Both the position numbers and the translations under genes were made by a program. A DNA stretch of 64,000 bases, from assembly GCF_900101595.1 (NCBI RefSeq), contig NZ_FMYY01000001.1:378072-442071 (forward strand), read 5' to 3'. Positions within the stretch are counted from its first letter, which is position 1. Each line of letters starts with the position of its first letter. The DNA is from Paenibacillus sp. cl123. Its GTDB lineage: Bacteria > Bacillota > Bacilli > Paenibacillales > NBRC-103111. Of the stretch, positions 11,274 through 27,822 are shown one piece after another. The notes below the pieces were generated by a model. It was not told the origin of the DNA. It saw only the letters and a program-made list of their open reading frames with translations, and searched no databases.

Positions 11274-11346
11274 GGGGCCTTAGCTCAGCTGGGAGAGCGC
11301 ATCGCTGGCAGCGATGAGGTCAGGGGTTCGATCCCCCTAGGCTCCA
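11274..11346 (+). tRNA. tRNA-Ala (GGC)
   Basis: A 73-base cloverleaf: acceptor GGGGCCT/AGGCTCC, D arm GCTC...GAGC, anticodon stem CATCG/CGATG with loop CTGGCAG (anticodon GGC, reads GCC), and T arm AGGGG-TTCGATC-CCCCT. The discriminator base is A. CCA is not encoded. The 3' part from the anticodon loop onward is the attachment site of the integrated element. Confidence 0.96.
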
Positions 11347-11348
11347 TA
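11305..11348 (+). repeat. attL, 44-bp direct repeat inside tRNA-Ala
   Basis: Identical over 44 bp to 25160-25203. It spans the anticodon loop, variable loop, T arm, acceptor 3' strand and two bases past the tRNA end. Confidence 0.93.
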
Positions 11349-11354
11349 ATGAAT

Positions 11355-11399
11355 AAAGCCTTTAAACACAAGGAATTCCGAGTGTTTAAAGGCTTTTTT
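11355..11399 (+). terminator. Rho-independent terminator of tRNA-Ala, supplied by the element
   Basis: A perfect 15-bp inverted repeat (AAAGCCTTTAAACAC with its complement at 11382-11396) is followed by a T-tract. It lies just inside attL, so it replaces the native terminator, which is now beyond attR. Confidence 0.88.
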
Positions 11400-11565: not shown

Positions 11566-12679
11566 CTAGCCGAACAACATTTCCCCATATTGTGTAGCGG
11601 TCTGTTTATGAACTGAAGGCAAAACATGAGAGTAAGTGTCAAGGGTTACTCTAATGTCGGAATGGCCAAGAATTTCTTTTACCACTTTAGGATTTATGTT
11701 TTGGGCTAACATGAGCGTAGCTACTGTATGTCTGAGATCGTGGAAACGGATGCGTGGGACATCTGCTTTCTTGATCAATTTATAGAAGTTACGAAGTAAA
11801 TTTCGAGGGTTAAGGGGCTTGCCTGATTTTGTACAAATAACCAAGTCATTGTCTTTATATTCTGAGCCAGCTGCAAGCTTCTGTTTTTTTATTTTCTTTT
11901 GCTGTTTCTTCAGGTCGTCCAATGTTCGCTGAATTAATGTTATCGTCCTTGCACTTGATTTGGTTTTGGTGTCCTGAATTATTTCCTTGCCGTCATGACT
12001 TAATGTTTGACGAACTCGCAGCACACCTAATTCAAAATCGACGTCCTTAAAACGAAGACCCAATATTTCTGACTGACGCATACCAGTGGTTAAAGCGAGA
12101 AGAAAAGCAATGTGGAGATCGTCCTGTTCGGCAAGTTTTAGAAATCGAACCGCCTCTTCAAGATTCCAGACAGACATTTCTTTACGAGGTACTTTTGGGG
12201 CTTCCGCATCAGCAGCCGGATTATATGATATATATTTGCGCTTCTGAGCAGTATGAAAGGAGCTCTTTACGATTTTCTGAATGTCCTGAATGGAGCGTTC
12301 TGACAAGCCAGTTTCTTTGAGCAGGAATGAATAGAACTTTTCAATCATTGCAGTTGTAATCTTGCCCATTTCCTGATTTTTAAAGTACGGCACAATATGC
12401 TTCTGAATATTTGACTTATAGGTTTTAAAGGTCACTTTTCTTAGTTTTACTTCCTTACTGTCAAGCCACTCGCCTTGAAGAAATTCTGTGTACTTCAAAT
12501 GATTGCTTTTGACATAGGTATGATCATCCACTTGCTGTAATATTTTCCTCATTTCTTTCTTTCTCTGATTTGAAGCCTCGCCGTTTAATTTGTCTGCGTT
12601 TGCCATCCTCATCTTTACCGGCACTTACTACGAACCAGTACGTACCGGTTTTCTCATCTTTGTGGACTTTCATTTGCAT
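11566..12679 (-). pseudogene. int: Tyrosine recombinase/integrase with frameshifted N terminus
   Basis: Site-specific integrase of the element. The catalytic domain is intact: Arg in TTGMRQSEILGL, Lys in the TKTKSSARTI beta-hairpin, HDLRH, LGHSD and Tyr in DTYSHV. A SAM-like core-binding domain precedes it (FKTYKSNIQKHIVPYF). The N-terminal AP2-like arm-binding domain (GTYWFVVSAGKDEDG) is present but in another frame, starting at ATG 12679 with GGAGG eight bases upstream and running into a stop soon after 12552. The frames meet at three tandem GAAA units (plus-strand TTTC, 12552-12563). Removing one unit would join the domains as one protein. As it stands, internal starts (for example 12624) could give a 352-residue form without the arm-binding domain. 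Could be real, phase-variable, or a sequencing error. Confidence 0.85.
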
Positions 12680-13602: not shown

Positions 13603-14565
13603 ATGGAAGTATATCAGTCAGAAGACTTTATAGAAAAATATGTGGGGAAAGTAAAGAATATATTTTTTGAACTCAAGCTGGATGACATTAGGAAAAAGAT
13701 AAACAGGATTCTTCAAAAGGAGAATTTGTATTTTGATGATGAAGCGTATCTCGTATTACAGTCTGAAAACAAAGAAAACGAGACTAAAATTTGCAACTTT
13801 TTTGTTCTTCCTACACATAGCCTATATTTTGATGATGGAGAGAAGATCAATGAAGCAGGGATTGCTGTAGAACTATATTCGCAATTCAACGATGAAAAGT
13901 ACAAGCGCATTCTTGTAAATCTAAGTGATGAGGTAATTGAGAAAGGTAATTGGCTAACCACTGCGTATATTGATCGTGATTTCTTTGTGTATAAGCCGGA
14001 CTTATATAGGTATTTGAGGATTGCAATAAAGTTGTCTTCACGTATCCTTAAGAAAGAAGCTAAGAAGGTTTTTTATAATGACGAGTGGCTTGAAGATGAT
14101 GAAGCAATTGAGCATATTTCTAACTACTGGTATGACCGAAACATGCTCTCATTAAGGAAGCTTGGTAATGAAAGTGAATTTGAATCCAGTCACAAGGAAG
14201 TTACAGATGCGGTGCATTTTTTAGAAGCTCAGAACCAGTACATAGCTGAGACCGAATTGCTCCCCTTTCCGGAGAAGTTACCCGATGAATCTAAAGATCA
14301 GGGCTGGGAAGACAACGATTTTTATTACCTAATTTACTCAAAGGCATGGAGTTGGATTCGTGCTTATTTCAACCGTAAGGGGATTAAGCTTAAAACTACT
14401 GAAAAGGAATTAGATCATTACTTGGTTGAAGCAGGGGTCTTCGAAAGTAACGAAATAAGACCAAAGACCAATTTAAAGCGTGCTGATCGAAAAACTACTC
14501 AATTGAAAGAACGAGTATTTATGATTAACAAAATAAGGTTTAATGAGTTCTTATCTCGAAAGTGA
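13603..14565 (+). CDS. Conserved-looking protein of unknown function in element
   Basis: A 320-residue soluble, Lys/Glu- and Asp-rich protein I do not recognise. It has no signal peptide and no membrane segment. Two halves can be seen: an N-terminal part rich in beta strands (residues about 40-140, ending NLSDEVIEKGNWLTT) and a C-terminal part with a WSWIRAYFNRKGIK helix followed by a basic tail (LKRADRKTTQLKERVFMINK) that could bind nucleic acid. The ribosome site AAAGGGGTGG precedes the ATG. It lies upstream of the Rep-like gene in the same orientation, so a role in replication or its control is possible but not shown. Confidence 0.75.
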   Translation: MEVYQSEDFIEKYVGKVKNIFFELKLDDIRKKINRILQKENLYFDDEAYLVLQSENKENETKICNFFVLPTHSLYFDDGEKINEAGIAVELYSQFNDEKYKRILVNLSDEVIEKGNWLTTAYIDRDFFVYKPDLYRYLRIAIKLSSRILKKEAKKVFYNDEWLEDDEAIEHISNYWYDRNMLSLRKLGNESEFESSHKEVTDAVHFLEAQNQYIAETELLPFPEKLPDESKDQGWEDNDFYYLIYSKAWSWIRAYFNRKGIKLKTTEKELDHYLVEAGVFESNEIRPKTNLKRADRKTTQLKERVFMINKIRFNEFLSRK

Positions 14566-18050: not shown

Positions 18051-18656
18051 TCACATTAAGCCTTTTTCTTTTAGACTGACGAAGGTGTTTCCTCCAATTA
18101 TGAGGTGGTCTAGCACTTCTATGCCCACAATTTCTCCTGCTCTCGCCAGCCGTTTGGTTAATTCAACGTCTTCTGGAGAGGGATTAGGGTCACCACTCGG
18201 ATGGTTATGAGCACAGATGAGAGAGGCGCTACAACGTTTAATCGCTGCGCGGAATACTTCCCTTGGATGAACGATTGCAGCGTTGAGAGAGCCAATCGAA
18301 ATGATTTCTTTAAAGATCACTCTGTTCTTTGTATTCAAAAATAAGCAAATGAAATGTTCTTTGGTTGCATACCTGAGTTCAGGTTCAAGTAAGTCAAATG
18401 CGTCTTTAGGACCGCGTATTGTTGTTTGCTCATAAGTTGGAATGGTCAAGTTCTTTGCAAGCTTTAACAGGGCTGTTAACTGACGAGCTTTACCCATGCC
18501 GATTCCTTTAATGCTCATGAGTTGCTGCTCGGTTACGTCCATTAGTTCTGCTGTAGTCGGAAACTGGTTGAGTAGTTGTTGGATGGGATAGCTGTCGGCA
18601 CGTTCACGTAAAACTTCTGAAATCAATTTTTTCAGATCATCTTTGCGATTGTTCAT
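18051..18656 (-). CDS. radC: RadC/JAB-domain protein
   Basis: A 201-residue RadC-family protein with an N-terminal helix-hairpin-helix segment (QQLMSIKGIGMGKARQLTALLKLA) and a C-terminal MPN/JAB metallo-domain with the HNHPSGDPNPSPED zinc motif and a conserved upstream Glu. Despite the old name its repair role is unproven; RadC copies are frequent in mobile elements. A second, broken copy is at 27312-27822. The cargo operon diverges from it. Confidence 0.92.
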   Translation of the reverse strand: MNNRKDDLKKLISEVLRERADSYPIQQLLNQFPTTAELMDVTEQQLMSIKGIGMGKARQLTALLKLAKNLTIPTYEQTTIRGPKDAFDLLEPELRYATKEHFICLFLNTKNRVIFKEIISIGSLNAAIVHPREVFRAAIKRCSASLICAHNHPSGDPNPSPEDVELTKRLARAGEIVGIEVLDHLIIGGNTFVSLKEKGLM

Positions 18657-18690
18657 TTAAATCTACCTCCTGATTATATTGATGGTTACA

Positions 18691-18726
18691 AAAAGGCTAG
18701 ACACTTATGAAAGTGTCCAGCCTTTT
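18691..18726. terminator. Strong hairpin between radC and the cargo operon
   Basis: AAAAGGCTAGACACTT and its near-perfect complement (18711-18726) form a 16-bp stem with one mismatch and a four-base loop, with A- and T-runs at the ends, so it could terminate in both directions. The rest of 18657-18899 holds no gene I can support. Confidence 0.65.
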
Positions 18727-18899
18727 GTCGCCTCTTGCGAGGACTACCTATCTGTATAGGTATCAGGTGTATAATATATAATCCTTTTGGTCTAAAATGC
18801 GACAAAATAGAACATTTGTTTGGAAGGATGTGGTACATTTTATGGCGAATTCTGTAAATAGGAGTAGATCAAATGTCATTATTAGAGAGGGGTTGAGTT

Positions 18900-20084
18900 A
18901 TGTCCAGAAATATACATTCTGCACAAGCATCAATGTTAGGATATCGATTTCAGCCTCTTTATGCATTGCTTGTACTTTGGAAAGAAGCGGATGACGATTC
19001 TAATGAGATTAACATTGAGGCCGAAGATGATATAGTTTTGAAAGGTAACTATACAAAGCTATATCAACTAAAGCATAGTACGGGAGATGTACATGAACTT
19101 ACAATAAAAAACGATGGTTTATGGAAAACTCTTAGAATTTGGTCTCCTTACGCTGAGTCTGATAAACACAAGATGTATTTCGTTACAGGAGATACCATTG
19201 CTCAAACCAATCCATTATATAAGTTAGTCAGTGGAGACTTAGATCGACATGACATAGTAGCTTTATTGACAAAAGAAGCCGAATTGGTAACTGAAGCTAG
19301 AGAAAAAGCAGTTGCTATAAATTCTAAGAAGTTACCATATGAGAATAAGTATCCGGGTTGTAGTACCTTTTTACAACTTAGTCCAAATCAGCGATTGAAA
19401 CTATTAGAAAAGATAACGGTTCGTATAGACACCTTCAATATATTACAGATTGAAAATAAGGTCATTGACCAATTGGATCAAATGGTAGTGAGAAAAATTC
19501 GACCATTAATTGCCAAAAGACTATTGGAGTGGTGGGATAGAAGAACACTTTCTTCATCAAAAATTACAAAGACTGAACTTTTAGTACAGCTACAAAGTTT
19601 AATTGCGCAAATTCAGGATAATAACCTCCCAGATGATTTTTCTAAATTATCCCCAGCATCAATTTCTGGTGAACTAGGCGGTTTTATGGAAAAGCAAATC
19701 GACCTAGTTGATGGAGGCTATAGCAGAAAGAAAAGAGCAGCGGTAACAAGATGGCGAGCAAGAAATCAACGTGAGAAATGGATAACAGATGACATCTTGA
19801 ATGCGTTAGAGCTTAATGACTACGATCAACTATTAATCGAGGCTTGGGCTGATCGTCACGAGCCAATGAAAGAAGATTTAGAAGGTGAAGAAGATAATTT
19901 CTGTAAAAAGAAAGGATTAGAGTTGCTTGACTGGACGCATAATGACGCACATCTTTATATAAATCCAATACGAGATGAGTGGAAACAACATTTTTTAATT
20001 CAAGGATCGTATCAACAATTATCTGAAGAATTAAAAGTAGGTTGGCACCCCAATTTTTTTGAAATGCTGGGTGATAACCAATGA
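18900..20084 (+). CDS. ABC-3C system effector with REase-like (Mrr/Cap4-type) domain
   Basis: First gene of the cargo operon, 394 residues. The N-terminal domain has the pattern of Cap4/DUF4297-type PD-(D/E)xK nucleases: AQASMLGYRFQPLYALLVL, an acidic strand EAEDDIVL and the YQLKHS strand that supplies the Q-x-K. The C-terminal 200 residues are helical and Trp/Arg-rich (VTRWRARNQREKW), as in the C-terminal domain of three-component ABC (ABC-3C) effectors. Inferred role: DNA-cutting effector held in check by the ATPase and middle component. Ribosome site AGAGGGG is seven bases before the ATG. The stop overlaps the next gene by four bases. Confidence 0.75.
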   Translation: MSRNIHSAQASMLGYRFQPLYALLVLWKEADDDSNEINIEAEDDIVLKGNYTKLYQLKHSTGDVHELTIKNDGLWKTLRIWSPYAESDKHKMYFVTGDTIAQTNPLYKLVSGDLDRHDIVALLTKEAELVTEAREKAVAINSKKLPYENKYPGCSTFLQLSPNQRLKLLEKITVRIDTFNILQIENKVIDQLDQMVVRKIRPLIAKRLLEWWDRRTLSSSKITKTELLVQLQSLIAQIQDNNLPDDFSKLSPASISGELGGFMEKQIDLVDGGYSRKKRAAVTRWRARNQREKWITDDILNALELNDYDQLLIEAWADRHEPMKEDLEGEEDNFCKKKGLELLDWTHNDAHLYINPIRDEWKQHFLIQGSYQQLSEELKVGWHPNFFEMLGDNQ

Positions 20085-20563
20085 CTTCATCTGATGTTTT
20101 TTCCATAACAAACCCTGCCTTAACATCACTTTTATTGTGGTCATTTTTAGAAGGCTTTGAGACTGGGGAAAGAAGCGGTTGCCCGTTCCCTTTAATTTTT
20201 TTACCATTACCCTTGGTGCTCTCCCAATCAATTAGGGATGATTTCAAAGGCACTAATGCAGCAACTGGATTATATAGTTGGATTACTCGTCGCCAAAAAA
20301 TATTAATTAACCTTGACACAAGAATCAATAAAACGGCGAGTTTAACTAGAAATGCTATTATTTTTGGTGCTTCGAATGGAATTATAATATTTGAAGCAAA
20401 TGGGACTTTAAAATCTGGTAGCAAAGGAATAGTTAAGAGTCGGTTGAAAAATAATTCTGATGAGATTAAAGAAATGATTGGCGCAGCAAACAAACTGGGT
20501 GTATGGTTTTCCCAAATTAACTCGACATCCAGTATATTAAATAGTTTGGGGTTAACGGTATGA
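20081..20563 (+). CDS. ABC-3C system middle component
   Basis: A 160-residue protein with the usual look of the middle component: an N-terminal FSITNPALTSLLLWSFLEGF helix pair, PLPLVLS, then a mixed alpha/beta region ending LGVWFSQINSTSSILNSLGL. Both its ends overlap neighbours by four bases (ATGA), showing tight translational coupling with the effector and the ATPase. In ABC-3C systems this protein bridges the ATPase and the effector; the assignment here rests mainly on gene order, size and these segments. Confidence 0.7.
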   Translation: MTSSDVFSITNPALTSLLLWSFLEGFETGERSGCPFPLIFLPLPLVLSQSIRDDFKGTNAATGLYSWITRRQKILINLDTRINKTASLTRNAIIFGASNGIIIFEANGTLKSGSKGIVKSRLKNNSDEIKEMIGAANKLGVWFSQINSTSSILNSLGLTV

Positions 20564-22506
20564 AAAGATGGAATATTCGTCAAATTCTATTGTACAGTCA
20601 TGATGATCGTAGACATGAGATTACTTTTGAAGTAGAGCAAGTAAATATTATTACTGGTGACTCTCAGACTGGAAAGTCGGCTCTCCCTGAAATCATTGAT
20701 TATGTTTTAGGATCAAGCGAATGTCACATACCTACATATGTCAGACGAAGTGTCTCATGGGTTGGTCTTGTTTGGAAGAAAAATGAGACTGAATTTGCAA
20801 TGTTTAGAAGAGTACCACGAGCCCCATACAAATCGAGTTCTGATATGCATTTTATTAATGGACGAAATATTACTGTTCCTAATCAAGCCAACGAAATTCC
20901 ATCGTCGACGAATATTGCTGGTGCATTAAAAAAATTCGAGAGATTAATTGGAATTGGAGACGTACAAAGTGAAGTTTTTGGCTCACAAAGAGATCGACAT
21001 ACGATTTCAATAAGAAGTGCAATACCGTATTTATTACAGGATGATAATATTATTACTAATAAAAATACGTTGATAAGAGGACTTGATGATTACCAGAGGC
21101 TTCAGACAATCATAGATGCTTTGCCCTACTACTTTGGAATAACTGATGAGGCTACAATTGAAAAGGAGATTGAACTCAAAAATTTAAAAAAACAGTTGAA
21201 GAGGCTAGAAAAAAACAGTTCAGAAGATGAGCAAATTACGATGAGTACCAATGCCCATACTCTTCTGTATCAAGCAACACAATTGGGATTGTGTGAAGCG
21301 TTACCTTTCGGGGCAACTGAAACGGTTGTAAATAGTATGCTACATAAGGTTGCTCAATGGAATCCATATTCCGATTCTTCATTAGTTGAGGAACGACTCG
21401 GTGATTTGTATGAGCAATTAAGTGTTCAGCAAAATGAGGTTATTTCAATTAAGAAAAGAATTAATTATGCCAAGAAATCTATACAATTTGCTCAGGATTT
21501 CAAGAGCACAGCTACTGCTCAACAAAGACGCCTTTCTGTGATTAATATTTTCAAAAATCCGGTTAATCCAGTTTCATGCCCACTTTGTCAACAAAATCTT
21601 GAAGAAGTTAACGAACCCATTAAACAGATCAGTGAGACTGTAAAGAAAGTCCAATTTGATCTTGATAATGTTGAAAAGGAGCGACCAAGCTTAGACAGTT
21701 ATATCACTTATCTAACCGAATTACTTGCTTCAGCAGAAGAGAAGATTTCTTCTATTAATGTCCAGATAGGAGCCCTTATTAAAGACAATGAAAAATTAGA
21801 GTCCGGTCTGGATTTAAAAGATAGAAGGAATAGATTGGTTGGAGTAGTTAATTTTTATATAGATTCTGTAGCAAAGGTGGCTTCGAAATCTACCACATCA
21901 TTCTCATCAGACCTTTCAGTACTAAGTGAGCGTATTAAGAATCTTAGTTTAGAAATTGATGTGGAATCAAAAAAAGAGGCGCTTGAAAATGTAGAAAGAC
22001 GAATAGCTGCTATGGCTAAGGAGATTATTGCAGACCTACCTTTTGAGGATAGGTATAAAGATAATCCGCTGTATTTAAATTTGCGTGACTTCAAAGTAGG
22101 GGTATCTTTACCTACTCGCATCGAATACATGAGAGATGTTGGCTCGGATGAGAACTATTTAAGTCTTCATATATCAATGATGCTTGCCATGCATAGACAT
22201 TTCGCAGAACTAAATCGTCCAGTACCTGGTGTTTTACTATTTGATCAGATAAGCCGCCCCTATTTTCCTTCTGAGGACGTTACGGAAATGGTTGAAATCG
22301 AAGGAAGTAATGATAATGATACAAAAGCATTGTTGCAGTATTTCAATTTGCTATTTAATGAGGTCAATCGTGGGGATTCTTTGCAAATAATTGTGATCGA
22401 ACATGCTTATTTTAAAAATCATCCAGAGTATATGAAGGCAGTTAAAAAGCGTTGGAAAAAAGGCATTGACGGTTTGATACCTATTGGTTGGCCGGAAAAG
22501 GATTAA
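20560..22506 (+). CDS. DUF3732-type SMC-like ATPase of ABC-3C system
   Basis: A 648-residue SMC/Rad50-like ATPase. Walker A is IITGDSQTGKSAL near the N terminus. Two coiled-coil segments (about 200-230 and 290-480) flank a CPLCQQNL motif near residue 340, which resembles a Rad50 zinc hook with a single CxxC. The C-terminal half carries GVLLFDQISRPYFP, the signature of DUF3732 proteins in place of a standard Walker B/signature pair, and ends with LQIIVIEHAYF. Expected role: sensing of phage DNA or replication intermediates and control of the nuclease effector. It overlaps the middle component gene by four bases. Confidence 0.85.
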   Translation: MKRWNIRQILLYSHDDRRHEITFEVEQVNIITGDSQTGKSALPEIIDYVLGSSECHIPTYVRRSVSWVGLVWKKNETEFAMFRRVPRAPYKSSSDMHFINGRNITVPNQANEIPSSTNIAGALKKFERLIGIGDVQSEVFGSQRDRHTISIRSAIPYLLQDDNIITNKNTLIRGLDDYQRLQTIIDALPYYFGITDEATIEKEIELKNLKKQLKRLEKNSSEDEQITMSTNAHTLLYQATQLGLCEALPFGATETVVNSMLHKVAQWNPYSDSSLVEERLGDLYEQLSVQQNEVISIKKRINYAKKSIQFAQDFKSTATAQQRRLSVINIFKNPVNPVSCPLCQQNLEEVNEPIKQISETVKKVQFDLDNVEKERPSLDSYITYLTELLASAEEKISSINVQIGALIKDNEKLESGLDLKDRRNRLVGVVNFYIDSVAKVASKSTTSFSSDLSVLSERIKNLSLEIDVESKKEALENVERRIAAMAKEIIADLPFEDRYKDNPLYLNLRDFKVGVSLPTRIEYMRDVGSDENYLSLHISMMLAMHRHFAELNRPVPGVLLFDQISRPYFPSEDVTEMVEIEGSNDNDTKALLQYFNLLFNEVNRGDSLQIIVIEHAYFKNHPEYMKAVKKRWKKGIDGLIPIGWPEKD

Positions 22507-22553
22507 GCTTCGTAATTATTCAGGTAATAACACTTTGGAGGATTACTATACAA

Positions 22554-23897
22554 ATGCAGATTAGAAAAATATGGATTGAGAAATTAGGGGGACTAGCGGA
22601 CTTCCATTTGGCTTTTCCTAGTCCCCTTGAATATCATTTTGGGGAAATGAAAGTATCTATTCTTGTTGGAGAAAATGGAACAGGCAAGACCTCGATTCTA
22701 AAATTCCTATCTCAGATTTTTGTTGATCAGCGCTATTTTGATCAATTAAAATCAAGCTTTCATCTTGAGTACGAAATAAATGGTGTCGAAAACTTCTTAT
22801 CCAATCAAAGTTATAGTAACAACTGTTTACCTTCAAAGGTTATAGTTTCTTCCTATTCAGCGTTTGAGCCATATCGATATAATTCACCTAAAAATTATTC
22901 CCCCGCTGAATATATATATCTAGGAACTTTAGGGAAAGGTACATTTGGACCAATTGGGCCAATTGCGTCTCTATCATCAGTATGTATACCAATTCTTGAA
23001 ACGTTTTTTCACAAGGACAAAAGAAAATTGTCAGCAATACAAGAGTTGTTAAATGAAATAGGCTATATAGAAGTACCCCAAATTCAATTAAGCTTTATTC
23101 AGTCCGAAAATTATCTAAACAAGAAATATGAAAACTTAAAAGATCAAGGGATTACTGATGAGAACTTGATGGAGATACGATATTTACTAGAAAAGCTACA
23201 TACTTTTCATCGTGACGTTTTAAATATTAAAAGAGTAAGAGGCAGACATCTTCTCGATCCAATTATTTTGGAAAACTATGTAGATGGTCCGAGTGGTTGG
23301 CTATCCGATGTAAAAAGATTAGCAAACTTACCGGGAGGCTTCAATATAGTAAAATCATTAAGTTTTAGAAAAGGGAATGAATTTGTACCACTTAATCAAT
23401 TAAGTTCGGGCGAACTAAGCATGTTTTTTAGGTTCTTTAAACTAATAGCCGCTATCTCTGATAACTCAATTGTATTGATTGATGAACCGGAGACTCACTT
23501 ACATCCTAGATGGATTCAAAAGTATCTCAATATGCTTAAATCAATATTCAGCAACTTTGACACCCATTTTATTATTGCAACACATTCACCTTTAATTGCT
23601 GCTGATGTACCCAACGAATCTATCATTGGTTTGCGAAAAAATAACAATGGAAGAGTTGAGCAGTATTTCGTTAATGAACAGACTCTTGGTACAAGCCCTC
23701 AAGAAATACTAAGAGAAGTATTTAAATTGGACAATCACTTCGGTGACTTTACGAATGATACGATATTAAAAATAAACAAACTAATTGATAAGGGAAAAAT
23801 CGATCTTGCAAAAAAATTGTATGATGACCTTGGAGATTCTGATGAAAAGTTTTCTTTATTTTTACGTATGAAACAACAGTTAGACAAGGGGAAATAA
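22554..23897 (+). CDS. AAA-family (OLD/Septu PtuA-like) ATPase
   Basis: A 447-residue ATPase. Walker A is ILVGENGTGKTSILKFLSQ; the C-terminal half has SSGELSMFFRFF (signature-like), Walker B IVLIDEPETHLHPRW and the His switch FIIATHSPLIA. The order and spacing match the ABC-type ATPases used by PtuA of Septu and by OLD family proteins. There is no TOPRIM nuclease domain at the C terminus; instead the next gene supplies an HNH nuclease. ATG 22554 is chosen (GGAGG 12 bases upstream); a frame start at 22488 inside the previous gene has no ribosome site. It follows the DUF3732 gene by 47 bases and is 1 base from the HNH gene. Confidence 0.85.
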   Translation: MQIRKIWIEKLGGLADFHLAFPSPLEYHFGEMKVSILVGENGTGKTSILKFLSQIFVDQRYFDQLKSSFHLEYEINGVENFLSNQSYSNNCLPSKVIVSSYSAFEPYRYNSPKNYSPAEYIYLGTLGKGTFGPIGPIASLSSVCIPILETFFHKDKRKLSAIQELLNEIGYIEVPQIQLSFIQSENYLNKKYENLKDQGITDENLMEIRYLLEKLHTFHRDVLNIKRVRGRHLLDPIILENYVDGPSGWLSDVKRLANLPGGFNIVKSLSFRKGNEFVPLNQLSSGELSMFFRFFKLIAAISDNSIVLIDEPETHLHPRWIQKYLNMLKSIFSNFDTHFIIATHSPLIAADVPNESIIGLRKNNNGRVEQYFVNEQTLGTSPQEILREVFKLDNHFGDFTNDTILKINKLIDKGKIDLAKKLYDDLGDSDEKFSLFLRMKQQLDKGK

Positions 23898-23898
23898 C

Positions 23899-25017
23899 AT
23901 GTGGAAACTCAGTCCAATAGAGGAAATTATAGAGATAGACCGTGGTATTCAAGAGTTTATATCCGATTTTTTTGAGTGGGTTTTGAATGCGGATGCTAGT
24001 AAAAATATCGATGAACTAAGGAAGCAAGTAACCATTAAAGAGAGTAGAATTGGTAGAGTAGCAGCGGCAACTAATATGAAGGAGTTAATAGTATTACTTG
24101 CAAAATCCTCACACAAAAAGATCATTGCGACATATTATGAAGACTTAACATCCAAATATTTAGATTTGGTTGACGGTGTAATACCTCCGCCACCTAAATT
24201 ATCCCCTGAAAGTCGATCTTTAATTCGAGAAATTTTCGAATATTTCTATGATAGTATCTTGGATTCTAAGACATTTCAACAAGAGTATATTCCTCAATAT
24301 AGCGGTTCGACTGAATTAAAAGCTTATTTAAGAGATAAGTTTGGAGACAGTAGAAAAGTATGTCCGTATTGTGATATACAATGGATAGGACATTCAGCGC
24401 ATTCTTCGATTGATCATTTTTTTCCGAAATCTAGTTATCCAATGCTATCTATATTTATTTCTAACCTAATTGTTTCATGTACTGGCTGCAATGATAGAAT
24501 TAAAAAGGCGAAATTATTACTGCCATTGTTTCATCCTCATTTTCATCAAGCGGCGGATCACTTTGAATTTGTACTTGACAATGAATGTAATAATATTGTC
24601 GATATCAAATTACTTTCTGATCAACGAGATTCACACAAAAGAGTTGTTAACTATTTTCAATTATTTAAACTAGAGGAGCTTTATGCAAGTGTCTTATACA
24701 AAGTTAAGGAGGACAGAAGAAAGCTAAGGGAAACAGTGAGGAGACTTTTTTTAGCTACTAACCCTTCCGGAGATAAGCAAAGGGTACTTCGAGATATCCT
24801 TCATGAAGAAATTAGCAACAGGATTGCCCAAAATATATTAAAAAGAGGACATTTCGATTTAACTAAGATTAAATATGATTTTTTACAAAGTATGAAGGGG
24901 CCGCTTTTTGATATTGAAATTGAGTATCTATCTTCCCACTTAAGATTAGATAGTCATATAGGGAATGATAGGAGCTTAAAAGATTCCGTTGTTACCGATC
25001 CAAATAAAATTGCTTAA
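23899..25017 (+). CDS. HNH endonuclease (Septu PtuB-like)
   Basis: A 372-residue protein with an HNH/zinc-ribbon nuclease in the middle: CPYCDIQWIG (about 155), SSIDHFFPKSSYP with the catalytic His pair, NLIVSCTGCNDRIK (about 190). The N-terminal 140 residues and C-terminal 170 residues are helical and not recognised, so it is longer than a minimal PtuB. It begins one base after the ATPase gene with AAGGGG upstream and closes the operon. The pair is best described as a Septu-like ATPase-HNH module; whether it acts alone or with the ABC-3C genes is open. Confidence 0.82.
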   Translation: MWKLSPIEEIIEIDRGIQEFISDFFEWVLNADASKNIDELRKQVTIKESRIGRVAAATNMKELIVLLAKSSHKKIIATYYEDLTSKYLDLVDGVIPPPPKLSPESRSLIREIFEYFYDSILDSKTFQQEYIPQYSGSTELKAYLRDKFGDSRKVCPYCDIQWIGHSAHSSIDHFFPKSSYPMLSIFISNLIVSCTGCNDRIKKAKLLLPLFHPHFHQAADHFEFVLDNECNNIVDIKLLSDQRDSHKRVVNYFQLFKLEELYASVLYKVKEDRRKLRETVRRLFLATNPSGDKQRVLRDILHEEISNRIAQNILKRGHFDLTKIKYDFLQSMKGPLFDIEIEYLSSHLRLDSHIGNDRSLKDSVVTDPNKIA

Positions 25018-25022
25018 CATTT

Positions 25023-25041
25023 GGTCACATTTCTGGTCACA
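25023..25041 (+). promoter_or_regulatory. Right pair of GGTCACA sites, putative integrase arm sites
   Basis: GGTCACA at 25023-25029 and 25035-25041, same 12-bp spacing and orientation as the left pair. It lies just after the HNH stop codon and about 120 bp before attR. Confidence 0.6.
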
Positions 25042-25093
25042 CTTTTTCATTTTCGAGCGCCGCGGCGCACTCGAACGTAGAAACATAAAACTC

Positions 25094-25117
25094 AAAAAAG
25101 CCTTGTCCCACAAGGCT
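25094..25117 (-). terminator. Leftward terminator inside right end of element
   Basis: AGCCTTGT-CCC-ACAAGGCT, with a T-run when read on the - strand. It would stop transcription entering the cargo from outside. Confidence 0.6.
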
Positions 25118-25159
25118 CTCCTCTCCTCTTTCCTTAACGTAAAAAAGCCCATCTCTCCA

Positions 25160-25203
25160 CTGGCAGCGATGAGGTCAGGGGTTCGATCCCCCTAGGCTCC
25201 ATA
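25160..25203 (+). repeat. attR, 44-bp direct repeat of tRNA-Ala 3' end
   Basis: Exact copy of 11305-11348. No D arm or acceptor 5' strand precedes it, so this is not a second tRNA. Confidence 0.93.
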
Positions 25204-25211
25204 CAAAATAA

Positions 25212-25242
25212 ACGTCACCACATCTCGTGGTGGCGTTTTTTG
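25212..25242 (+). terminator. Former tRNA-Ala terminator beyond attR
   Basis: ACGTCACCAC-N5-GTGGTGGCGT followed by TTTTTT. Its position right after attR fits the terminator that served the tRNA before the element inserted. Confidence 0.75.
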
Positions 25243-25289: not shown

Positions 25290-25609
25290 AGGCGAAAGGA
25301 CACTGCGAGAAATTCGACCAGTGGATTCGCCGCAGGTTACGCATGTGCTTATGGAAGCAATGGAAACGAATGCATACCAGAATCAGTGAGCTCCGGGCAC
25401 TCAGCGTCCCAGAATGGGCATGTTTTGTCATGGCTAACTCCAGATGCGGAGCGTGGGAAATGTCTCGAAACACAAACAACGCCCTTCCGACTTCCTATTG
25501 GGAATCGAAAGGGCTGAAAAGCTTTGTTAACCTTTTGGAACCGCCGTATGCGGACCCGAATGTACGGTGGTGTAAGAGGACGGAGGTTAGGCGCCCCCTC
25601 CAACTCGAT
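25290..25609 (+). pseudogene. Group II intron 3' remnant (maturase C terminus and domains V-VI)
   Basis: The frame from about 25307 reads EKFDQWIRRRLRMCLWKQWK, then RISELRALSVPEWACFVMAN and SYWESKGLKS, the C-terminal maturase region of an LtrA-type intron protein. It is followed by a domain V-like hairpin (CCGCCGTA ... TACGGTGG, 25541-25570) and a domain VI-like stem with CTCGAT at the intron end. All upstream domains and the reverse transcriptase are missing, and a stop codon lies just before the preserved part, so it is a dead fragment. Confidence 0.8.
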
Positions 25610-27311: not shown

Positions 27312-27822
27312 TTACATCAATCCGTTTTCACGTAACGAATAAAAGTTATGAAGCGACACGACAAGATGATCAAGGAGTTCCACGCCTAATATCTCGCCAG
27401 CTTCTGCAAGGCGCTTAGTAAGCTGGATATCTTCATGCGACGGTGTACAATCCGTGCTGGGGTGATTATGAATGGCGATGATCGATGCGGAGGCTTTAAC
27501 TATCGCTCGACGGTATGTCTCCCTTGGGTGGAACAATAGCGGCTGACAATGAGCCGACCGATATGCGCTCTTTCGATATCACATGGTTCTTGGTGTTGCA
27601 GCAGATTATCCAAAATTCCTCGTGCATCAGGTGTCCGACTTCGTATCTCATCAAGTCGAATGCATCCTTTGGTGAACGGATTACATATGTGTCATTTTTC
27701 GGCGTATTCAAGGCTCTTGCTAATTTCAATGCGGAAGTGATTTGCTTTGCTTTTGACCCGCCGATTCCTTTAACGGTTTGTAGTTCTGCTGATCCTTGTC
27801 GCGGGTTGCGGTGCAGATGCAA
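27312..27822 (-). pseudogene. radC remnant with frameshift
   Basis: Two frames together give a RadC protein: 27822-27530 encodes VKGIGGSKAKQITSALKLAR and SPKDAFDLM ... SVGSLSAAIV, and 27536-27312 continues HPRETYRRAIVK with HNHPSTDCTPSHED and ends LRENGLM. The frames switch near 27525, and the N terminus is lost where a lipoprotein fragment begins on the other strand. It is a diverged paralogue of the intact radC at 18051-18656. Confidence 0.85.

Follow-up and report, generated by a model that had tools for sequence, protein, structure and literature searches.

A Lamassu operon and a putatively portable PtuA-HNH cassette, probably two stacked anti-phage systems, on a tRNA-Ala island of Paenibacillus sp. 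cl123

The stretch of DNA analysed here, called the window, comprises 64,000 nucleotides of Paenibacillus sp. cl123 (NCBI RefSeq assembly GCF_900101595.1, contig NZ_FMYY01000001.1, positions 378,072 to 442,071 of the forward strand), and the subject of this work is a putative operon of five genes within it, in which a predicted three-gene Lamassu system is followed by a predicted Septu-like pair of an ATPase and an HNH protein. A first-pass annotation, made from the letters alone, had described five same-strand genes with four-base overlaps or short gaps, and the same open reading frames (ORFs) are found here at 18900-25017, all on the plus strand. The genes, and the segment of them that is shared with P. 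pabuli, are as follows.

18900..20084, plus strand: gene 1, LmuA, with a Cap4-like nuclease region and CTD7; 394 amino acids.
20081..20563, plus strand: gene 2, LmuC, ABC-3C middle component 3; 160 amino acids; 4-bp overlap with gene 1.
20560..22506, plus strand: gene 3, LmuB, DUF3732 SMC/Rad50-like ATPase with CPLC and LLFDQ; 648 amino acids; 4-bp overlap with gene 2.
22554..23897, plus strand: gene 4, PtuA-like ABC ATPase; 447 amino acids; 47-bp gap after gene 3.
23899..25017, plus strand: gene 5, HNH protein, PtuB/PDC-M62B-like; 372 amino acids; 1-bp gap after gene 4.
22537..24953, plus strand: putatively portable PtuA-HNH cassette; extent of the 72% blastn match to P. pabuli DNA.

The first three genes had been assigned to the ABC-3C conflict systems, and profile searches agree with this and point to Lamassu. 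Gene 1 scores 91 bits against Pfam CTD7 (cut-off 27.6; 9e-26) and matches the PADLOC LmuA profile over nearly its full length (2.3e-47), with EAED at residue 40, QLK at residue 56, and a Cap4_nuclease score in Pfam of 20.8 bits, which is under the cut-off of 26.2. Gene 2 matches PF20131, middle component 3 (MC3), at 4.2e-35 and PADLOC LmuC at 9.8e-16, and gene 3 matches DUF3732 at 6.1e-43 and PADLOC LmuB at 8.8e-108, 9hqu, 9uxl and 9ny5 being DUF3732 relatives with solved structures. The LmuB protein has a P-loop (GDSQTGKS) at residue 33, the CPLC already noticed in the first reading at residue 340, and LLFDQ in place of the Walker-B glutamate; a CPxC motif and a Walker-B glutamine, to which these correspond, are described for LmuB in PMC10586767. 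With the P-loop and profile of LmuB, an LmuA that ends in an ABC-3C domain and an LmuC in between, genes 1-3 read as a complete three-gene Lamassu in the order LmuA-LmuC-LmuB (CTD7, MC3, DUF3732). Gene order, CTD7, MC3, DUF3732, CPxC and the Walker-B glutamine are all shared with the Lamassu/DdmABC systems of the ABC-3C family whose LmuB is of the DUF3732 kind, from which the window differs by the second ATPase-nuclease pair 47 bp behind.

The resemblance of genes 4 and 5 to Septu PtuA-PtuB, proposed in the same first reading, is likewise borne out. Gene 4 matches AAA_15 (8.5e-21) and PADLOC PtuA (5.6e-44) and has all the motifs of an ABC ATPase, namely Walker A (GENGTGKT), signature (SSGE), Walker B (LIDEPE) and H-loop (THSP). 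Gene 5 has PDC-M62B as its best library match (1.7e-20), a weaker match to the PtuB profile (3.2e-13) and a Pfam HNH match of 0.0022, below the cut-off. In the five members of its clade compared (the clade is described below), residues C155, C158, D172, H173, N189, C194, C197, N198 and H212 are invariant, and H173 and N189 are predicted to be catalytic by likeness to H75 and N91 of PtuB (PMC13096335). The structure predicted for gene 5 from seven sequences is poor (mean predicted local distance difference test score 56.6), and its profile matched by sequence no solved PtuB among the solved structures; the ATPase profile of the clade matches solved PtuA chains, for example 9vh1 and 8ee4, as well as solved AriA chains. 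The two genes are best described by their profiles as a Septu-like pair, which shares with Septu (PtuA-PtuB; PDC-M62 and PDC-M01 in PADLOC) the order ATPase then HNH and the full ATPase motifs, and differs in an HNH protein of 372 residues that is longer than the matched PtuB profiles (204-247 positions) and in that no retron was recognised beside the pair. Many PDC-M62 and PDC-M01 calls coincide with Septu calls according to PMC11811056. The likeness to PARIS (AriA-AriB) is confined to the AriA chains among the ATPase matches, the partner in the window being an HNH protein and not of the AriB/DUF4435 kind. A retron-type PtuAB was also considered and rejected: against the NCBIfam retron I-A equivalogs gene 4 reaches 95.2 of 500 bits (PtuA) and gene 5 29.4 of 150 bits (PtuB), far under the curated cut-offs, and no reverse transcriptase was found among the island genes scanned, a scan that left out some small ORFs.

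The 47-bp gap between genes 3 and 4 had been named as the place where two systems could be separate, and the DNA comparison with P. pabuli puts a seam there. Similarity between the window and P. pabuli is limited to 22537-24953 (72%): it begins 17 bp upstream of gene 4 and stops close to the end of gene 5. The PtuA proteins of the two are 75% identical and their LmuB proteins 21% identical. The same is seen between genomes G083 and G112, where similarity (85.6%) starts 28 bp upstream of the ATPase gene and ends at the HNH stop, and the PtuA proteins are 84% identical, the partners upstream being PDC-M22 in one and Wadjet II in the other; between G083 and G757 similarity is also limited to the pair (72%), save for one 180-bp piece elsewhere. 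Across these three comparisons it starts 13-28 bp before the ATPase ATG, which suggests that genes 4-5 are a portable unit of two genes, able to move independently and carrying little beyond its ribosome-binding region. In the window the ATG at 22554 has GGAGG 12 bases upstream, and an alternative in-frame TTG at 22488 would make gene 4 overlap gene 3. The G+C content, 36% in genes 1-3 and 33% in genes 4-5, is a weak hint at two origins.

As for shared control, a simple scan of 18600-25200 listed no terminator-like site in the 47-bp gap (2 such sites in the region, 3.6 expected). Promoter-like sites in the same region are at chance level, and the promoter scan is uninformative because even the sequence upstream of gene 1 gave no site on that gene's strand. 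The earlier suggestion of two stacked systems under common control is thus upheld for the stacking, by the seam, while the short gap and the lack of a listed terminator fit a common transcript, which is probable.

Six intact ATPases, that of gene 4 included, form one clade with 100/99 support in a tree of 43 sequences. Its members, and what lies upstream of the pair in each, are as follows.

Window: Lamassu LmuA-LmuC-LmuB, same strand, gap 47 bp.
P. pabuli (G119): two-gene Lamassu, LmuA (PDLC00239) and LmuB (PDLC00254), same strand, gap 140 bp.
G083: PDC-M22A and a broken LmuB-like PDC-M22B, same strand, gap 355 bp.
G112: Wadjet II JetA-JetB-JetC-JetD, same strand, gap 692 bp.
G1185: ABC-3C operon of MBL-type, trypsin-CTD5, MComp1 and SMC-type ATPase genes, then a PLD-type gene, same strand, gap 187 bp.
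Priestia megaterium plasmid: ImmA/IrrE- and DUF6615-type genes and, farther away, a protein of 2,103 amino acids with weak STAND/AAA-type matches.

An SMC-type defence operon thus stands upstream on the same strand in five of the six intact copies, the partners being three Lamassu types, the Lamassu-like PDC-M22 and Wadjet II. The G1185 operon is classed as Lamassu because the close copy of its ATPase in genome G155 matches LmuB at 3.3e-92; the MBL protein of the operon matches Avs1a (6e-94) slightly better than LmuA (3.5e-91). Like the window, G112 has a cassette of this clade after an SMC defence operon; it differs from the window by Wadjet in place of Lamassu and by its wide gap. On the Priestia plasmid, a second HNH protein (L046:8954-9928; HNH_4, weak similarity to the Cas9 HNH) comes directly after the pair.

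These loci come from HNH searches in genome sets that overlap and used differing limits: 392 genomes of the order (7 matches), 398 of the class (39 matches, with a broader profile), 75 of the genus of P. pabuli (2), 225 of its family (5) and 398 of the phylum (3). A search with the single HNH protein gave one locus in genome_contigs (P. pabuli NBRC 13638), and the plasmids gave one record; after further plasmid searches the Priestia plasmid was still the sole one with a clade member. A pair on a Vibrio plasmid, viewed as annotated, was left out of all counts. In phages there was no match to PtuA, and in viral_contigs the HNH alignment A1 found 17 distant viral loci, the single LmuB and PtuA proteins and alignment A2 had no match, and A4 had one weak partial match.

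Forty-three distant HNH loci served as a control, of which 40 have an adjacent ATPase ORF (L034, L097 and L117 have none and were dropped), and their upstream 6 kb, less than 2 kb being present in one of the 40, was searched by phmmer with Lamassu, PDC-M22, Wadjet II and G1185 queries. An SMC-type protein was found upstream of one of the 40 pairs, that of G155, which is counted generously, the SMC gene there ending 3.3 kb before the pair and the PLD gene and a gene for 495 amino acids lying in between. PADLOC on ten of the control upstream proteins and Pfam on four gave no further SMC-type protein; Pfam alone can miss such proteins, since the SMC protein of G155 gave no Pfam hit for its C-terminal piece. 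Within the limits set by small numbers and by relatedness among the loci, Fisher's test gives p = 2.6e-5 for 5/6 against 1/40, p = 1.6e-4 when the window is left out (4/5), p = 1.8e-4 when the broken relatives G757 and G035 are added as negatives (5/8) and p = 1.2e-3 when near-identical sisters are collapsed to four lineages (3/4). In this small sample the placement of the cassette behind SMC-type defence operons looks non-random.

The islands on which such pairs lie offer another explanation, in which cargo gathers at an attachment site and the cassette stands last by chance, with no functional link to what precedes it. In the window the relevant features are these.

11274..11346, plus strand: tRNA-Ala (GGC), integration site (ARAGORN; Rfam RF00005, 62.4 bits).
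11305..11357, plus strand: attL-like 53-nt direct repeat, the tRNA-Ala 3' end and flank.
11566..12624, minus strand: island integrase adjoining the tRNA (PHROG 1 integrase, 4.2e-70).
18051..18656, minus strand: RadC-family protein, divergent from the Lamassu operon (PF04002, 3.4e-46).
25160..25212, plus strand: attR-like repeat at the distal island end, 94% identical to 11305-11357, 142 bp past gene 5.

The att-like repeats are 13,855 bp apart, which gives an integrated island of about 13.9 kb, flanked by these repeats of the tRNA-Ala 3' end, with the five-gene operon as its distal cargo. The position of the pair at the island end, 142 bp from attR, is what chance accretion would give, and so is that of the G112 pair, which ends 51 bp before a duplicated gene, sigma-factor-like by eye: two copies of 535 bp, 90% identical (L143:3834-4368 and L033:8252-8786), flank Wadjet II and the pair, and suggest an island inserted at that gene. 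On the other hand, an accretion of this kind would not readily account for SMC-type genes upstream of 5/6 clade pairs as against 1/40 controls, nor for G1185 and G155, which hold different pairs behind one Lamassu operon. In these two genomes (L142:504-7720 and L144) the Lamassu-PLD operon remains 86% identical until 24 bp after its final stop codon, where similarity breaks off, to resume for 165 bp (77%) beyond the HNH gene; between the similar flanks lie the clade pair in G1185 and the 495-residue gene with a distant ATPase-HNH pair in G155. Judged from these alignments, the space behind this Lamassu looks like a replaceable slot. Pure hitch-hiking is taken as a serious possibility, if short of a probable one.

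The idea that all five genes form one system, with two sensors and two nucleases and every part needed, draws on their tight same-strand spacing and had been put forward beside the stacking of two systems in the first reading. It is contradicted by the nearest relatives of each half, whose partners, where there are any, are different. Searches with the window LmuB covered 104 genomes of the family (8 matches) and 398 of the class (9 matches), its own genome being in both, which leaves 15 other loci (7 and 8), selected solely by similarity to the window LmuB at E up to 1e-20. The pair, sought with the window proteins in the sequence present, was found at 0 of these 15; the sequence past LmuB is short in G025 (666 bp) and in G504 (about 430 bp). 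The nearest Lamassu relative, G025 (LmuB 58%, LmuA 61%, LmuC 56% and RadC 67% identical to the window), has no ATPase-HNH pair in the 666 bp that remain of its contig, and G139 has a divergent, weakly PtuA-like ATPase. Homologues of the two halves, on whose co-occurrence elsewhere the first-pass annotation had made its composite idea depend, do occur together in the broad sense that the P. pabuli pair, the closest relative of genes 4-5, stands immediately behind a Lamassu of another type (LmuB 21%), and do not in the narrow sense, among the 15 related loci, two of which have less than 700 bp after LmuB. With each half found without the other, an obligatory five-gene system is rejected and is considered very improbable.

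Two separable anti-phage systems, stacked on one tRNA-Ala island, probably sharing one transcript and in an arrangement that recurs elsewhere, are therefore the likely explanation, which we hold with good confidence. In the first of them LmuB, together with LmuC and LmuA, would detect abnormal ends or structures in phage or plasmid DNA and so switch on the Cap4-type nuclease of LmuA; in the accounts of PMC10586767 and PMC12904381, LmuB senses DNA ends or structures and the LmuA effector then acts. In the second, the PtuA-type ATPase would control the HNH protein, which may cut nucleic acid on infection. For Septu, the motifs of both PtuA and PtuB are required and cleavage of tRNA-Tyr has been shown for one system (PMC13096335).

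Functional cooperation of the two systems is plausible. In a stronger form of the stacking explanation, compatible with it, the cassette is functionally tied to SMC-type defences as a relay or backup, a second stage that senses nicked DNA, or DNA coated with single-stranded DNA-binding protein (SSB), produced by LmuA or JetD, or else phage proteins that disarm the SMC system. Such a relay of damaged DNA to PtuA-HNH would explain the recurring SMC-type neighbours, and the positional bias with changing partners speaks for it, as do the reported action of another Septu PtuAB on nicked DNA (cited in PMC11555353) and the detection of phage SSB listed for Septu in a table of PMC12904381. The Priestia pair, which has no SMC system, and the 0/15 related LmuB loci with a pair speak against it, as does a Planococcus plasmid whose LmuB is 48% identical to that of P. 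pabuli and has no ATPase-HNH pair directly behind; a relay is regarded as doubtful. A still more specific proposal, that the clade serves specifically as an accessory to SMC/Rad50-type defences (Lamassu types, PDC-M22 and Wadjet II), swapping hosts among them and acting as a second stage triggered by DNA products of LmuA or JetD or as a guard against phage inhibitors of SMC sensors, seems unlikely.

Several observations weigh against the explanation by two stacked systems in a recurrent arrangement. The clade is small, with six intact copies and some broken ones beside which no SMC defence system stands: no SMC-type defence genes were found upstream in G757 (ATPase split, HNH with a stop) or G035 (ATPase remnant), G366 retains an HNH remnant with no ATPase hit, and the upstream region of the Priestia pair gave no SMC-type hit. 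G366 is outside all the tests and as a third negative would weaken the bias further. In addition, the control search finds only SMC proteins that are akin to the queries or present in the profile libraries, in G1185 the SMC ATPase and the pair have a PLD gene between them, and PDC-M22B is broken in G083. The gaps in the other clade members with SMC-type partners are larger than that of the window (140 to 692 bp), and that of G083 holds a stable hairpin, so co-transcription is not general in the clade.

Defences embedded within other defence systems have been the subject of earlier work. A preference of PtuA-HNH pairs for SMC-type neighbours was not found described in the literature searched, preprints and the PDC source paper being outside its scope; the parts are of known kinds and the recurrent arrangement is undescribed within that literature. 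Defence islands stack systems, and a preference of one system for a class of neighbours can rarely be demonstrated. Here one cassette clade stands behind different SMC-type systems, and its clean borders and the exchange of partners between sister copies make cooperation between a sensor of DNA ends or topology and a PtuA-HNH nuclease directly testable. Cooperation, if true, would explain why a sensor already equipped with a nuclease gains a nuclease pair.

Some minor features accompany these loci. Before the operon, the island of the window holds, besides the integrase and the divergent RadC, a small DNA-binding-type gene and an Xre-type regulator, and its genes at 13603, 14713 and 16614 have no clear match in the profile libraries tried. 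Between RadC and LmuA, at 18680-18760, a strong hairpin (fold of -28.2 kcal/mol) is followed by a T-rich stretch and is a possible attenuator or terminator of a shared control region. A RadC gene beside a Lamassu of this type is common to the window and G025 (L024:667-5036), and in G040 (L026:298-2594) a convergent, AriA-AriB-like pair of an ATPase and a DUF4435 protein faces the Lamassu. In G366 (L147:8239-11138) the HNH remnant lies right behind a short ORF, by eye the start of a housekeeping SbcC, that follows an SbcD-like ORF, so that the remnant may represent a defunct cassette next to a Rad50-type gene. About 330 bp past attR in the window, 25539-25609 on the plus strand resembles the 3' domain of a group II intron (RF00029, 31.8 bits with gathering threshold 40, E 1.9e-4), and, also outside the island, a truncated ORF at 27496-27822 on the minus strand is by eye similar to the RadC at 18051-18656.

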